A stretch of 64,000 bases of DNA, from the NCBI RefSeq assembly GCF_026385475.1, contig NZ_JANIDW010000001.1, forward strand, positions 310,001-374,000, read 5' to 3'. Each line of letters begins with the position of its first letter. The first letter of the stretch is position 1. Positions 24,299-29,745 of this stretch are shown piece by piece. This DNA comes from Bombella saccharophila (GTDB lineage Bacteria > Pseudomonadota > Alphaproteobacteria > Acetobacterales > Acetobacteraceae). A program made the translations under genes and the position numbers. A model generated the notes under the pieces. The model was not told the DNA's origin and searched no databases. It saw nothing but the letters and a program-made list of their open reading frames with translations.

Positions 24299-24958
24299 AT
24301 GGTGTCTTCCCCTAACCCTCGTTCTTCTCTTGATGCAGATAGCGTGCGTGAGGCGTATCGTCGTTGGGCGCATATGTATGACAAAGTCTTTGGGGGTGTC
24401 TCAGCCTTTGGGCGACGCCGGGCTGTAGCTGCGGTGAATGCCCTACCAGGAGAGCGCGTGCTGGAGGTCGGGGTTGGTACCGGGCTTGCTTTGCCCTCTT
24501 ATCGGGCTGAAAAACGCATTACAGGAATCGATCTTTCAGAAGATATGCTGGCTTTAGCTAAGGAGCGCGTAAAGCGCGATGGCCTGCGTAATATTGATGA
24601 ACTTTTGGTGATGGATGCAGAGCAAACAAGCTTTGCTGATAATAGTTTTGACATCGCTGTAGGGATGTTTGTGGCCTCTGTGGTGCCGCATCCTGATCGC
24701 CTTTTGGCTGAGCTAAAACGGGTGGTAAAGCCGGGAGGGCATATTCTATTTGTCAACCACTTCCTAGCGCAGAGGGGGATTCGCTTACGTGTTGAGCGTG
24801 TGATGGCACGGGCCTCGCGCGCGCTAGGGTGGCACCCTGATTTTGCGATTGAATCACTTCTACCACCGGAGGATTTAGCGCGTGCGACGGTTACACCTGT
24901 CCCCCCAGCGGGGTTGTTTACCCTCGTGACATTGCCGCAAGAGCCGTCTAAAGAATAA
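24299..24958 (+). CDS. pmtA: Phosphatidylethanolamine N-methyltransferase-like SAM methyltransferase
   Basis: The 219-residue class I methyltransferase has the SAM motif VLEVGVGTGLALP, an acidic GIDLSEDML loop and the DAEQTSF segment. The opening YRRWAHMYDKVFGG and the late PEDLARATVTPVPPAG region resemble the Rhodobacter-type PmtA that methylates phosphatidylethanolamine three times to phosphatidylcholine. That lipid is common in acetic acid bacteria. It is a cytoplasmic, membrane-associated enzyme without membrane helices. The ATG lies 13 bases after a GAGG. UbiE/COQ5 family membership is the alternative, but the typical UbiE signature is absent. Confidence 0.75.
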   Translation: MVSSPNPRSSLDADSVREAYRRWAHMYDKVFGGVSAFGRRRAVAAVNALPGERVLEVGVGTGLALPSYRAEKRITGIDLSEDMLALAKERVKRDGLRNIDELLVMDAEQTSFADNSFDIAVGMFVASVVPHPDRLLAELKRVVKPGGHILFVNHFLAQRGIRLRVERVMARASRALGWHPDFAIESLLPPEDLARATVTPVPPAGLFTLVTLPQEPSKE

Positions 24959-25022: not shown

Positions 25023-26252
25023 GTGACTACAAGGCCTTTATTTCAGAAAACATATTCTACCGCCCTACATCGTGAGGGGGGAAGGTTCTTCTTGCTCGCA
25101 TTTTTTGCGGGCATGTTAGGGGGAAGCTTAGGGATGCCTTTCCTCCATGTGCAACCCTCTGCTGGTGTTGTGGTGGCTCATGCGTTGTTGATGACGCTTT
25201 ATGTCGTCTGCCCTGTGATGTTGGGGGGTATGGCGCAATGGTTCCTCCCCAAGCTTTTAAAGGGTGAGGGGATGGCCCTCCCCACTGCCTCTCACGCCGG
25301 GTTTGTGCTTTTAGCTGTCGGTGTGTTTTTGCTGCCTGTTATGCCCTATGGGGGGTTAGCTCTTTGGGCCTTGGGGATGTTGGCTTTGGCCGTCAATGTT
25401 CTTGCCACAATATTGGAGATGCGCTCTATCACCTTTCGGGCGTTTCCTCCCCTCATTTGGGCTTTTGTGGGGAGTGCTTTGTCTGTTCTCATCGTAGCAC
25501 CGGTTCTTTTGGCTTTCCTCGTGCGTAGTGGCTTTGCGGGTGGTGGGGCAACGGCTTTGCTGGCAGTCCTGCATGGTGGGGTCGAGATGAGCTTGCTGAG
25601 CGTTCCTTCTTTAGGGATTATTGTTGCAGCCCTGCTCCCTGCCAAAGCGGAACGTGGCATGGTCGCACGATGTGCCCCTTATGCTTTTGGGGTGATGGGG
25701 CTTGTGCCTGTTTTATGCTGGGCGGACCATCTATTTGGGGGGCTATCCTCTACGGCGTATAGGGTCGGGCTTGTGGTGGGGCTCGCGATGCCCTGCTTGG
25801 CTCTTTTAGGAGCGTTTCTAGGTGATATGTGGCGCGCGCGTCTGCCATCCGGCCCTGTGGCAAGCTGGGCCTCTGGTGGTTTGGTGCTGCTTTTAGCGGG
25901 CTGGATTTTGATGGTGTTGGGGGGTGTGCAGTCACTCCCCTTTGGGCTTTCAGGCGCGGCGAGTCATCAATTAGTTATGTTTGGTAGCTTATTGGCACTA
26001 GGCGCGGCATTTTATGCGTGGTGCTCTGCGGGGTTGGCGCAGCATAATAAAGGGCTGGTCTTTTTTGGCTCCCTTCATGCTTTTGTGACATTTATAGGGG
26101 CAGTCTGCTCGGTCATGCCGCAGCTTGCCCTCCCCGCGGTTATTTTGATGACGGCGAGTCTGGTCATGTTCGGCTTGGTCGCAGGGCGGCTTTGGTACGC
26201 TCTGTTAGTGGCGCGTGCCAACATTAGAGCCGAGCTTGAGTGTAAAGGGTAA
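25023..26252 (+). CDS. Degenerate heme-copper oxidase subunit I-like (CtaD-like) membrane protein
   Basis: The 409-residue protein has about 11-12 hydrophobic segments and aligns by eye with cytochrome c oxidase subunit I. AHALLMTLYVVCPVMLGGMAQWF matches helix II and keeps a His (53). A stretch at 183-200 matches the helix VI HPEVY region, but the CuB ligand and the cross-linked Tyr appear lost. CWADHLFGG (232-240) replaces WAHHM with Asp-His. SHQLVMFGS (314-322) stands for HFHYV with only one His. It is 120-odd residues shorter than real CtaD, so it is unlikely to be a working oxidase. Start is GTG 25023 with a poor ribosome site. It sits directly before ctaB, where ctaD-type genes often lie. 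It could be a remnant or a repurposed heme-handling protein. Confidence 0.65.
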   Translation: MTTRPLFQKTYSTALHREGGRFFLLAFFAGMLGGSLGMPFLHVQPSAGVVVAHALLMTLYVVCPVMLGGMAQWFLPKLLKGEGMALPTASHAGFVLLAVGVFLLPVMPYGGLALWALGMLALAVNVLATILEMRSITFRAFPPLIWAFVGSALSVLIVAPVLLAFLVRSGFAGGGATALLAVLHGGVEMSLLSVPSLGIIVAALLPAKAERGMVARCAPYAFGVMGLVPVLCWADHLFGGLSSTAYRVGLVVGLAMPCLALLGAFLGDMWRARLPSGPVASWASGGLVLLLAGWILMVLGGVQSLPFGLSGAASHQLVMFGSLLALGAAFYAWCSAGLAQHNKGLVFFGSLHAFVTFIGAVCSVMPQLALPAVILMTASLVMFGLVAGRLWYALLVARANIRAELECKG

Positions 26253-26259
26253 TCGCATC

Positions 26260-27225
26260 ATGCAGGCATCATCCACACCATCCTCATCGCTACTAACGCG
26301 GTTTATGGCTATGTTGCGTGTAGAGGGGCAAAATGGTGATGCCGCCTTGCAAGATTGGATCGCCTTGCTCAAACCGCGGGTGATTTCGCTGGTTGTATTT
26401 ACGGGGCTTGCAGGCATGGCCGTGGCCCCTAAATGGCCGTCTATCCCCGTTGGTCTTGTTATCATTGCTTGTATTTGCATCGGGGCTGGGGCGGCTGGGG
26501 CCATCAATATGTGGTATGACCGCGATATTGATGCGATTATGAAGCGTACGCAGGTTCGCCCCGTGCCAGGCGGGCGTGTAGAGCCGACGAGCGCGCTGGT
26601 TTATGCCGTGATTCTCTCCGTGGCGTCGGTTGTGGTGCTGTGGTTGGCGACAAACCTGCTCGCAGCGGGGATTTTGGCGTTCTCCATCTTCTTTTACGGC
26701 GTGATTTATACGATGTGGCTTAAGCGTAGCACGCCGCAGAATATTGTGATTGGTGGGGCGGCGGGGGCTTTCCCCCCCATGATAGGCTGGGCTGCGAGCA
26801 TGGGCTCGCTAGATGTGTTGCCTGTAGTGATGTTCGCGATTGTCTTTTTATGGACGCCGCCGCATTTTTGGTCTCTCTCCCTTTATGCGTGTAAGGATTA
26901 TGAGAGTGCGGGCATCCCTATGTTGCCAGTCGTAAAAGGTGCACGCCATACGCGCTGGCAGATTGTCATTTATACCGTGATTTTAAGCCTTGTCTCGCTC
27001 GTGCCGAGTGTGGTGGGTCAATGTGGCTGGTTCTACACAGTTTGCACTAGCCTGTTAGACCTCGGCTTTATCTATTACGGGCTGCGCGTTCTCTGTGATA
27101 AGCAAGATGATAAGGGTAACAGCCTGACAAAGGATAGACCAGCTCGCTATGCTTTTCGCTACTCGCTGGCATATCTCTTTTTTCTCTTTTGTGGTCTATT
27201 GATTGATAGGGTTCTTCTGGCATGA
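26260..27225 (+). CDS. ctaB: Protoheme IX farnesyltransferase (heme O synthase)
   Basis: The 321-residue UbiA-superfamily membrane protein has both Asp-rich motifs: NMWYDRDIDAIMKRTQVRP in loop 2-3, and the YTMWLKRSTPQNIVIGGAAGAFPP region typical of CtaB/COX10, with about nine membrane helices. It farnesylates heme b to heme o, needed for the bo3-type quinol oxidase that acetic acid bacteria use. ATG 26260 is chosen (AAAGGG 9 bases upstream); the in-frame start at 26215 overlaps the previous gene. It follows the CtaD-like gene by 7 bases and overlaps the CoxF-like microgene (ATGA). In related bacteria the locus carries a full cta/cox operon. Confidence 0.95.
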   Translation: MQASSTPSSSLLTRFMAMLRVEGQNGDAALQDWIALLKPRVISLVVFTGLAGMAVAPKWPSIPVGLVIIACICIGAGAAGAINMWYDRDIDAIMKRTQVRPVPGGRVEPTSALVYAVILSVASVVVLWLATNLLAAGILAFSIFFYGVIYTMWLKRSTPQNIVIGGAAGAFPPMIGWAASMGSLDVLPVVMFAIVFLWTPPHFWSLSLYACKDYESAGIPMLPVVKGARHTRWQIVIYTVILSLVSLVPSVVGQCGWFYTVCTSLLDLGFIYYGLRVLCDKQDDKGNSLTKDRPARYAFRYSLAYLFFLFCGLLIDRVLLA

Positions 27226-27332
27226 GCGATCTTAATACGACCCCCCGCCGGCAAGGCCGCCTTTTTGGCATTGTTGTTGGCTTGTCCTTTTTTGCTCTTT
27301 CCCTTTTTGTGGCAGCTCTTTACCGGCTGTAA
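27222..27332 (+). CDS. CoxF-like small membrane protein (36 residues)
   Basis: A 37-codon frame starts inside the ctaB stop (ATGA at 27222-27225) and ends with TAA at 27330-27332, before a terminator. The product, beginning MSDLNTTPRRQGRL, has a short basic N-terminus, one membrane helix (about residues 14-33) and ends LYRL. Its size, layout and place right after ctaB resemble the small protein encoded between ctaB and ctaG in alphaproteobacterial cytochrome oxidase operons (CoxF-like). ctaG, ctaC and ctaE are not present here. It is below common gene-finder length limits, so it is easily missed. Confidence 0.6.
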   Translation: MSDLNTTPRRQGRLFGIVVGLSFFALSLFVAALYRL

Positions 27333-27355: not shown

Positions 27356-27397
27356 AAAACCCCGCATCTCACCAGCGCAGGCAGGATGCGGGGTTTT
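27356..27397. terminator. Bidirectional terminator between ctaB locus and Tim44-like gene
   Basis: A perfect 13-bp stem (AAAACCCCGCATC at 27356-27368 with GATGCGGGGTTTT at 27385-27397) closes a 16-base loop. A T-rich tail follows on the plus strand and an A-run precedes it, so it can stop transcription from both convergent gene groups. Confidence 0.85.
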
Positions 27398-27425: not shown

Positions 27426-28391
27426 TTACCCTGCCTGTTGGATGGCAGAGAGAATCCAATTACCGCGTCCATCGGCCCGGAGGAAGGTCCAAAGCTCTGT
27501 AATAGTTTGTGGCTCGGTTTTGCTGCCATCAAGCACTGTGCCCATACTATCGGTCGTGACATCGACAGCAGAATATTGCAGAGCAACGCTAGCGTAAGTG
27601 ATATTGCCTTCCCGCCATGCCTCGGCGAGGTCCCCACGGATGAAACGTACCTGAGAGACGATATTGCGCGCCCCACGGCTTGTAAGCTCGGAGAGTTGGT
27701 TATTGAAGTAACTCACCATCTCCGGCGTGGCCATACGTTGCAGGGAGGCCATGTCCTGCGCGCTCCATGCCGCTTGGACATTGAGCAAGAGTTGTTGGAA
27801 GCTCTGATAATCCTCTGGTGTTAAGGTAACATCTTGTGCTGGTGCAGCCTGAGGTTGGTTGGGGAAGGGAGATGCTCCACCATTAGCGGGCGTAAACCCC
27901 GTTGTAGGGCCATTATTCGTGCTTGAGGATCGCCGCCATAATTTGATGACGAAGTTTATCAGCAACGCAACGAGCAGTGCTTGGAAGATAAAGCCAAAGA
28001 AGGAACCGCCACCACTAAAGCCCCCAAAGAAGCCATGCCCGCTAAGCATTCCAAAAAGGCCAGCCCCTAAGAAGCCACCGGCCAAGCTGGTCAGGAAGGG
28101 ATGACGTGCCGCAAAGGGAGGGCGCATCCCACCACCAAAAGCAGGACGGTTGAAGCCACTGCCCATGGAAGGCTCTGCCGTGCCGTAAGAGGGGGTGCGT
28201 GGGGTCATGCTACGGTCCATAGGCCGTGTCCAGCTAGGGGTAACGCTGGTGCGGGGCGGTGCGCTCCATGTACGGGAGCCACGGCTGCCAAGGGAGGAGC
28301 CCATCCCAGCGCGGGCCTCAGCGGCAGGGGCGAGGGCAAAGAGCGGCAGGCACAGCACCGCTGTGGCAAGAGGGATAAGACGAATACGCAT
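27426..28391 (-). CDS. Secreted/membrane Tim44-like domain protein
   Basis: The 321-residue protein starts with a signal peptide (MRIRLIPLATAVLCL, likely cut after AEARA). A Ser/Gly/Arg/Pro-rich low-complexity region (about 30-90) and a Gly/Phe-rich hydrophobic stretch with a membrane helix (about 105-155, ending FVIKLWRR) follow. The C-terminal Tim44-like domain (about 190-321) includes LQRMATPEMVSYF and ITELWTFLR. Tim44-like domains occur in the mitochondrial import motor subunit and in bacterial membrane proteins whose job is poorly known. ATG 28391 is preferred over the 7-residue longer frame. It follows pmbA by 7 bases. A second Tim44-like gene is at 50796. Confidence 0.85.
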   Translation of the reverse strand: MRIRLIPLATAVLCLPLFALAPAAEARAGMGSSLGSRGSRTWSAPPRTSVTPSWTRPMDRSMTPRTPSYGTAEPSMGSGFNRPAFGGGMRPPFAARHPFLTSLAGGFLGAGLFGMLSGHGFFGGFSGGGSFFGFIFQALLVALLINFVIKLWRRSSSTNNGPTTGFTPANGGASPFPNQPQAAPAQDVTLTPEDYQSFQQLLLNVQAAWSAQDMASLQRMATPEMVSYFNNQLSELTSRGARNIVSQVRFIRGDLAEAWREGNITYASVALQYSAVDVTTDSMGTVLDGSKTEPQTITELWTFLRADGRGNWILSAIQQAG

Positions 28392-28398
28392 AATCGGG

Positions 28399-29745
28399 TT
28401 AGTCTCCAGCAAGACTCATATGGTCGATACGAATGGTCGGGGCGTGATAACCAGCCATGAGGTCGAGGTCATTGGCCGGGATAAGGCGGGCAAACATCTC
28501 AAGCAGATTGCCAGCAATGGTAATGCCAGAGACAGGCTCGGCAATCTCACCATTGCGAATCATAAAGCCAGAGCCACCACGGCTATAATCCCCAGTGAGC
28601 ATATTGATGGCATTGCCCATAAGTTCTGTCAGTAACACGCCTTCTTTAATATCAGATTGCAACGCAGAGGGGGAATGGTCTCCAGGATGGAGATAGAATG
28701 TGGAAAGACCCGGCCGTACACTCCCTCCGCTGCGGATAGCCCGCCCATTGCTTGTAGGGAAGCCTAGCTTACGCGCGCAGCGGCTATCTAGCAACCAGTG
28801 GTTGAGTTGGCCATTCTCAACAAGATTTAATGGAAGAGTCGCGCTCCCTTCACCATCAAAGGGGCGAGACCCCGCAAGGCGAGGGAGGGTTGGGTCATCA
28901 GTTAAGGTGATGCCCTTACGGAAAAGGGCCGCTCCGCGCTTATCTTTAAGAAAGGAGGCCTCTTGTACAATGGCCGCGCCATTAATAGCTGCGGCGAAAT
29001 GCGCTAAGAGAGAGGAGGAGACGCGTGGGGCGAATAATACGGGATAAAAGCCCGTTTTAGGCCGGATAGGGTTGAGACGAGCCAACGCATGACGGGCTGC
29101 TTCATCCCCTAAGTGAGTCGGATTGTGCAAATCGGCCTGATGCACCGCGTTATGGAAGGCATAATCACGCTGCATATGCGGACCTGTGCCTGCCACAACG
29201 CTGATGCTTCGGCTATGCCCACTGCGTTGATACTGCCCCGCAAAACCTGCGCTTGTGGCAAGGGCAATGTCATGCGTGCTGGCACTCGCTGCGGCCCCGC
29301 TACTATTTGTGATGCCCTTATGGGCGAGGGCCGTACCTTCCATTTCCTTCGCTGTGGCGAGGAGGGCGTCTATCTCTGGTGTGGGTGTGGAGTCAAAGAG
29401 GTCTAGCTTTGTGATGGCCTCTTGTGGGAGCGGGATGAGCGGATGCTCGGCTAATCCATCCTCTGGGGAGGGCGGAACGGCTTGAGCCATCGCACAAGCA
29501 CGTTCGGCTAGCTGGTCGAGTGCGTGTGTGGTGAGGTCATTGCCTGACACACTGGCAACACGCCCTTGATGAAAGACACGCAAGCTGAGGGAGAGCCCCT
29601 CTGCATGGCGGATGCCCTCCGCCTTGCCTTGCCGAATCATAGCAGAGCGGTTCTGGCTCCGCATAATGAGGGCATCAGCATGGTCCGCTCCGTGATGGCG
29701 CGCACGTGTGAGAGCATCGTGAAGGGGAGTGAGGAGGTCTGTCAT
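28399..29745 (-). CDS. pmbA: TldD/PmbA family metalloprotease PmbA
   Basis: The 448-residue protein matches the PmbA (TldE) subunit: an N-terminal domain with RQGKAEGIRHAEGLSLSLRV, a central region with PVLFAPRVSSSLLAHF, and a C-terminal domain with GRAIRSGGSVRPGLSTFYL and RGGSGFMIRNGEIAEPV. TldD/TldE complexes degrade unfolded peptides and mature some modified peptides; the zinc site is on TldD, which is not in the window. It overlaps the upstream M16 peptidase gene by 4 bases (ATGA), so the two proteases are probably made together. Confidence 0.93.
   Translation of the reverse strand: MTDLLTPLHDALTRARHHGADHADALIMRSQNRSAMIRQGKAEGIRHAEGLSLSLRVFHQGRVASVSGNDLTTHALDQLAERACAMAQAVPPSPEDGLAEHPLIPLPQEAITKLDLFDSTPTPEIDALLATAKEMEGTALAHKGITNSSGAAASASTHDIALATSAGFAGQYQRSGHSRSISVVAGTGPHMQRDYAFHNAVHQADLHNPTHLGDEAARHALARLNPIRPKTGFYPVLFAPRVSSSLLAHFAAAINGAAIVQEASFLKDKRGAALFRKGITLTDDPTLPRLAGSRPFDGEGSATLPLNLVENGQLNHWLLDSRCARKLGFPTSNGRAIRSGGSVRPGLSTFYLHPGDHSPSALQSDIKEGVLLTELMGNAINMLTGDYSRGGSGFMIRNGEIAEPVSGITIAGNLLEMFARLIPANDLDLMAGYHAPTIRIDHMSLAGD

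Follow-up and report, generated by a model that had tools for sequence, protein, structure and literature searches.

A subunit I-like gene beside ctaB in acetic acid bacteria that retains the ligand pair of one heme

Why should a bacterium keep, immediately before its heme O synthase gene, a gene that resembles cytochrome c oxidase subunit I (COX1) after most of the metal ligands of that protein have been lost? The question was raised by a 64,000-nucleotide stretch of Bombella saccharophila (contig NZ_JANIDW010000001.1, positions 310,001 to 374,000; hereafter the window), in which a 409-residue open reading frame, here called ctaDx, precedes ctaB. Sequence comparison demonstrated the descent of ctaDx from ctaD, its ligand pattern, the selection acting on it, its confinement to a single clade and its co-loss with ctaB. 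Given these patterns, there may be an even chance that ctaDx is a repurposed oxidase subunit, a one-heme membrane protein that, together with CtaB, supplies the bo3 oxidase with heme O.

Homology and remaining ligands of ctaDx

The features on which this argument rests are as follows.

25023..26252, + strand: ctaDx, open reading frame of 409 amino acids (aa) with a GTG start, descended from COX1; 12 predicted transmembrane (TM) helices, without the binuclear centre
25179..25181, + strand: codon of His53, at the helix II ligand position of the low-spin heme
25725..25730, + strand: Asp235-His236, at the site of the CuB His-His pair
25965..25967, + strand: codon of His315, at the helix X ligand position of the low-spin heme; the heme a3 His position is Ala313
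26260..27225, + strand: ctaB, heme O synthase (NF003349, 1.2e-99; TIGR01473, 1.1e-98)

An initial sequence-only reading of the locus had placed the 409-residue protein with oxidase subunit I by eye, and the comparisons agreed. No Pfam or NCBIfam model matched the window protein alone; it was similar to COX1 chains in the PDB (phmmer, best E = 3.5e-10), and among ctaDx relatives PF00115 was matched by 24 of 32 and the CtaD model TIGR02891 by 18 of 32. An AlphaFold model of ctaDx (pLDDT 68.6, pTM 0.73) matched COX1 structures with TMq up to 0.81; because 24 of the 26 rows in its input alignment were canonical CtaD, the other two being ctaDx, the fold prediction was partly steered and its support is not independent proof. 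A second run on the window's ctaDx by itself gave a poor model (mean pLDDT 52.1, pTM 0.33), which was left unused. The C-terminal CtaD stretch NYWGEGA...EW persists in several ctaDx proteins. The protein thus has the homology and the predicted fold of a heme-copper oxidase subunit I and, as judged from its sequence, is the in-place descendant of ctaD.

Ligands were mapped in an alignment of four intact CtaD with 75 ctaDx proteins, comprising the 60 best profile matches, 8 more divergent sequences, 6 from genus searches and 1 from Komagataeibacter; an earlier set comprised 56 ctaDx, aligned with MAFFT after one long frame had been trimmed and an intact COX1 (L155) omitted. This mapping, which the sequence-only reading had proposed, upheld homology to heme-copper oxidases. 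In the window protein the helix VI His of CuB is replaced by Gly186, the helix VI Tyr by Ser190, the HH pair by Asp235-His236 and the heme a3 His by Ala313, so that the reported change of most CuB residues and one heme ligand was borne out. The supposed conversion of HFH to His-Gln-Leu was displaced by two positions; HFH aligns with Ala313-Ser314-His315, an H-x5-G anchor being ungapped in both. His53 and His315 had also been noted as kept, without recognition that they form the complete site of one particular heme: aligned with the heme a ligands of helices II and X, they are identified as the entire bis-His axial ligand pair of the low-spin heme.

Across the 75 ctaDx proteins the helix X low-spin His was retained in every case and the helix II His in 74, the sole exception (L204, from genome G303) being a frameshifted copy with its N-terminal part lying in another frame. 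Little else of the metal centres remains. The CuB His and the Tyr of helix VI were each found in 0/75; the first His of the HH pair occurred in 34/75 and the second in 10/75, never both together; and the high-spin heme a3 position was His in only 2/75. Of the residues of a competent heme-copper oxidase, therefore, the low-spin bis-His pair is present, while the high-spin His and the set of three CuB His plus Tyr are not. The K-channel Lys was retained in 0/75, the CuA-side Trp in 1/75, and Arg in 8/75 at the helix I position that we take to contact the heme a formyl. The two proteins with His at the high-spin position, L014 and L040, have it although the CuB set is gone.

The retained pair stands out against a divergent background. 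Of the 371 columns occupied in 90% or more of the 74 unbroken rows, 4 were invariant: His53, Trp146, Trp233 and His315. The same four columns were invariant in the first 56 rows (4/363), where the median identity between pairs was 26% and 21 genus labels were represented (Komagataeibacter possibly counted twice); the random chance of two named columns falling among 4 of 363 is 9e-5, in a calculation that ignores shared ancestry. Both codons varied silently in these 56 rows (His53, CAT 35 and CAC 21; His315, CAT 46 and CAC 10). Identity to canonical CtaD was highest in the ligand helices II (0.40) and X (0.39) and lowest in helix VIII (0.16), with helices VII and XII at 0.22.

A bis-His site in a COX1-like fold might instead belong to a one-heme cytochrome that transfers electrons (e.g., with quinol or a c-type cytochrome as donor and some other acceptor), or that senses redox state or heme, and lies beside ctaB incidentally; membrane proteins with bis-His sites usually carry redox hemes. 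This explanation is considered unlikely, given the near absence of the CuA-side Trp, the complete absence of the K-channel Lys and the lack of the Arg-Arg loop in 73/75 proteins, and given the co-loss of ctaDx with ctaB and bo3 described below.

Origin of the locus and constraint on ctaDx

The remaining features of the locus bear on its history.

24299..24958, + strand: class I S-adenosylmethionine-dependent methyltransferase, conserved upstream neighbour; the nearest NCBIfam model is PmtA-like, with a score below the cut-off
27222..27332, + strand: CoxF-like one-TM protein of 36 aa, with an ATGA overlap with ctaB; place and residue pattern as in intact cta operons
27356..27397: inverted repeat, rich in G+C and flanked by runs of A and of T, lying where two genes converge; a likely two-way terminator as read from the sequence

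In the window sequence, 64 bases lie between the methyltransferase gene and ctaDx, without a subunit II gene between them; 7 bases separate the ctaDx stop from the ctaB start, and the 36-aa frame overlaps the end of ctaB by 4 bases. The coupling to heme O synthase and to a 36-residue CoxF-like protein, as first described, was therefore confirmed. The small protein shows a basic-then-hydrophobic pattern and resembles the small one-TM protein, presumably CoxF, that occupies this position in intact cta operons. A strict CoxF-like motif was found at 46/56 ctaDx loci, while four of the ten motif-negative loci (L013, L014, L036 and L039) hold a fitting open reading frame by eye.

The order methyltransferase, ctaDx, ctaB was observed in 45/45 distinct ctaDx loci; the methyltransferase also precedes ctaDx in L185 and L186, and all three genes were present in 19/19 further stretches (order not tabulated). 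Relatives with an intact oxidase have either methyltransferase-ctaC-ctaD-ctaB in the same order (L046 and L048, with ctaC recognized by COX2 domains) or ctaC-ctaD-ctaB with no methyltransferase within 4.5 kb (L047 and L051). The earlier suggestion of a stripped aa3 operon with a kept subunit I descendant accords with the gene order of L046 and L048, and on this comparison the ctaDx locus is identified as a stripped aa3 operon with ctaC gone from its place. The reported absence of ctaC and ctaG stood in so far as ctaC is missing from its place and the genome has no CtaG/Cox11 match; no genome-wide search was made for ctaC or ctaE. Nor does ctaDx look like an ordinary paralogue of an intact copy elsewhere, another possibility raised at the outset, as the only PF00115 match in its own genome is the CyoB gene and no second intact ctaD was found by that model.

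A CtaB tree (99 rows, quick IQ-TREE, including 40 of 83 canonical CtaB rows) united the 56 ctaDx rows and genome G001, which is without ctaDx, in one clade (SH-aLRT 97). Its sister comprised G283 and G187, family genomes with intact CtaD. In G001 the methyltransferase gene is followed by ctaB, and no open reading frame of at least 40 aa in its 9.5-kb stretch matched the family profile. One ctaDx clade with one nested loss therefore makes a single origin, with at least one later nested loss, the simplest reading of the sequences. An intact-looking COX1 is also encoded in G001 (L180/L183, G001:C7), within a frame of 984 aa, as is a second PF00115 protein whose 676-aa frame is of CyoB-like size.

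The family profile was searched in 299 family genomes, and frame counts rest on the best 60 among the matches listed. In these (E up to 1.4e-83) open frames were 404–481 aa long, apart from 751 aa in G042 alone, where the frame runs on upstream; canonical genes scored closely below them, in frames from about 530 aa upward. None of the 60 was interrupted, the one stop in G214 preceding its start codon. The gene was intact in 11/11 genomes of its own genus and open in 8/9 of another, the ninth being frameshifted in an 85%-complete assembly. The ratio of nonsynonymous to synonymous substitution rates (dN/dS), proposed beforehand as a check across relatives, indicated purifying selection: by YN00 it was 0.06–0.24 in 17 of the 18 pairs giving a value (20 pairs run), and by NG86 0.08–0.24 in 19/20. 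For CtaB in the same pairs it was 0.015–0.13 (YN00, 15 values). Since dN/dS for ctaDx was well below 1 but above that for CtaB, ctaDx is judged to evolve faster than CtaB yet under clear constraint.

These results bear directly on decay, which the sequence-only reading had offered as the plain alternative, whereby ctaDx would be a remnant retained merely through its position in the ctaB operon. Most catalytic residues are indeed gone, change is faster than in CtaB, G001 has lost the gene, and the search for frameshifts in relatives, which left 74/75 copies unbroken, did find one frameshifted copy (G303, L204, G303:C21, about 800–1959, in an 85%-complete assembly). Nevertheless, with frames open in 60/60, 11/11 and 8/9 genomes, dN/dS mostly 0.06–0.24 and both His present in all 74 unbroken copies across the clade, decay was rejected and is regarded as highly improbable.

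Several observations concern the neighbourhood of the operon. The PmtA/UbiE-like methyltransferase stays before ctaDx-ctaB in ctaDx genomes, holds the corresponding place in two of four intact aa3 loci, and remains even in G001 where ctaDx is deleted; at L033 (G042) the open frame of ctaDx extends upstream (701-aa open reading frame) and overlaps the methyltransferase gene. Convergent with the ctaDx-ctaB operon is a gene for a Tim44-like domain protein (27426-28412, - strand), and the proteins behind ctaB in L183, L185 and L186 have, by eye, an N-terminal stretch similar to the Tim44-like protein. A promoter and terminator scan gave counts close to those of shuffled sequences; the inverted repeat at 27356..27397 is absent from its output, the loop limit of the scan being 8.

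Association with heme O synthesis and a proposed function

At all 56 ctaDx loci ctaB lies directly downstream, and it was present in 19/19 further stretches. The genome of the window has a single ctaB match at E <= 1e-10, and a cyoABCD operon without an adjacent cyoE. CtaG_Cox11 was found in 0/68 ctaDx genomes (60 + 8), compared with 182/299 genomes overall. CtaA was present in 35/68 ctaDx genomes and absent from 33/68, the own genus being among the latter; because of this absence the ctaDx heme, if any, cannot generally be heme A, which is excluded as ligand for those 33 genomes while the other 35 carry CtaA.

Fifteen of 299 genomes had no family-profile match. When ctaB was sought in 12 of these (G198, G280 and G282 were left out), 10 were negative; those with ctaB were G031 (fragmented and CtaG-positive) and, weakly, G050. 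Five genomes of 1.7–2.1 Mb that are 98–100% complete (G029, G066, G070, G116 and G210) lack both ctaDx and ctaB, and family profiles matched no subunit of a bo3 or aa3 oxidase in them. Three of them had one PF00115 match each (about 1e-41 to 1e-42) in a frame of 785–833 aa, which by its size we take to be quinol nitric oxide reductase; the other two had none. Since these near-complete genomes without ctaDx also lack ctaB, ctaDx appears to disappear when heme O does.

Constant coupling to ctaB and co-loss with it are also expected if ctaDx were a scaffold only, stabilizing CtaB or an assembly complex and binding no heme, and rapid sequence change outside a few positions is in keeping with this. 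Such a role has been proposed in print for Acetobacter (PMC10715153, in the part of that paper available to us). However, a scaffold leaves unexplained why two low-spin heme ligands should be among four invariant columns, and the aligned sequences contradict the published premise of a complete loss of metal-binding residues. We think it improbable that scaffolding is the whole function.

A one-heme partner of CtaB was proposed instead because the low-spin ligands are kept, the catalytic centre and electron entry are lost, and the gene tracks heme O synthase. The aa3 operon would have been stripped in an ancestor that the acetic acid bacteria share, with ctaC lost from its place and ctaG from the genomes. 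The ctaD gene would have stayed beside ctaB, losing the centre formed by heme a3 and CuB, electron entry on the CuA side, the Lys of the K channel and the Arg-Arg loop for the propionates while retaining the bis-His low-spin site. Here ctaDx may bind one b- or o-type heme, and with CtaB in the membrane it could hold or dock heme O, or its substrate heme B, en route to cytochrome bo3. Heme occupancy, contact with CtaB and heme hand-over are what we infer from the sequence patterns.

A number of observations weigh against this proposal. The Arg-Arg loop that is missing from 73/75 proteins is presumably the propionate clamp, although its loss would suit loose, passing heme binding; and helix XII, which we take to line the low-spin heme, is nevertheless among the least kept. 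One copy among the 75 is frameshifted (G303), the nearest genome pair gave a dN/dS of 0.49 (YN00) or 0.32 (NG86) from few changes, and dN of ctaDx exceeded that of CtaB 1.4- to 10-fold in the 15 pairs for which YN00 gave both. G001, inside the clade, has lost ctaDx and kept ctaB, one exception in 57 clade CtaB rows, and in G077, which falls outside it, ctaB occurs with a single oxidase subunit I and no ctaDx; hence ctaDx is not strictly needed. E. coli CyoE is not known to require a partner of this kind, and CtaB of A. pasteurianus reportedly worked on expression in E. coli.

More tentatively, the client may have become its own chaperone: subunit I of the lost oxidase would have been converted, once, into a dedicated one-heme carrier or docking protein, so that a bo3 oxidase arriving without cyoE could be served by the native heme O synthase. 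We lean somewhat against this fuller account. If ctaDx does bind its heme, the heme-copper oxidase fold would have in it a mono-heme member without oxygen chemistry. The gene also offers a clear example of selection retaining one cofactor site in an enzyme subunit whose catalytic function has gone. To our knowledge the transfer of farnesylated heme from synthase to oxidase is poorly understood; because ctaDx keeps only the low-spin site and adjoins the synthase gene, with the remainder of the oxidase gone, hand-over could be addressed through gene removal and point mutation in acetic acid bacteria, which are not pathogens.

Prior work and related systems

Matsutani 2014 is said to have described functional ctaB and ctaA, with the missing function of ctaD ascribed to accumulated mutations, and reportedly this work is linked with the deranged COX1-like protein of Acetobacter. 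That protein, beside ctaB, is described as being without all metal-binding residues and as probably stabilizing CtaB (PMC10715153, available part); by gene place and description it belongs to the same family as ctaDx. Unlike that description, ctaDx keeps both low-spin heme ligands in unbroken copies and is under purifying selection across the clade. Conservation of ctaB and ctaD in three A. pasteurianus genomes (PMC5158111) and acetic acid bacteria without aa3 (PMC4007555) are also on record, in the accessible parts of these papers. The gene and its link to ctaB are therefore already known, as far as these excerpts go. In the literature searched, judged mostly by title and the start of the abstract, there was no report of an invariant heme site, a one-clade origin, purifying selection or co-loss with ctaB.

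With CtaD/Cox1 of the alphaproteobacterial aa3 oxidase, ctaDx shares operon position, COX1 fold and the low-spin ligand pair. It differs in having no binuclear centre, Tyr or CuA-side entry, with no ctaC in place and no ctaG in the genomes, and it is about 120–140 residues shorter than the four intact CtaD compared. CyoB, subunit I of bo3, is of the same superfamily and present in the same genome; however, CyoB is far above the PF00115 cut-off and occupies a different gene place, whereas ctaDx of the window has no Pfam match. Heme insertion and assembly factors are not known to share the fold of ctaDx, and we know of none that is a converted oxidase subunit. In its proposed task, ctaDx would resemble Surf1 and the CtaA-CtaB complex (PMC9145763, as its available portion describes them), where a special heme is moved from the synthase to subunit I.

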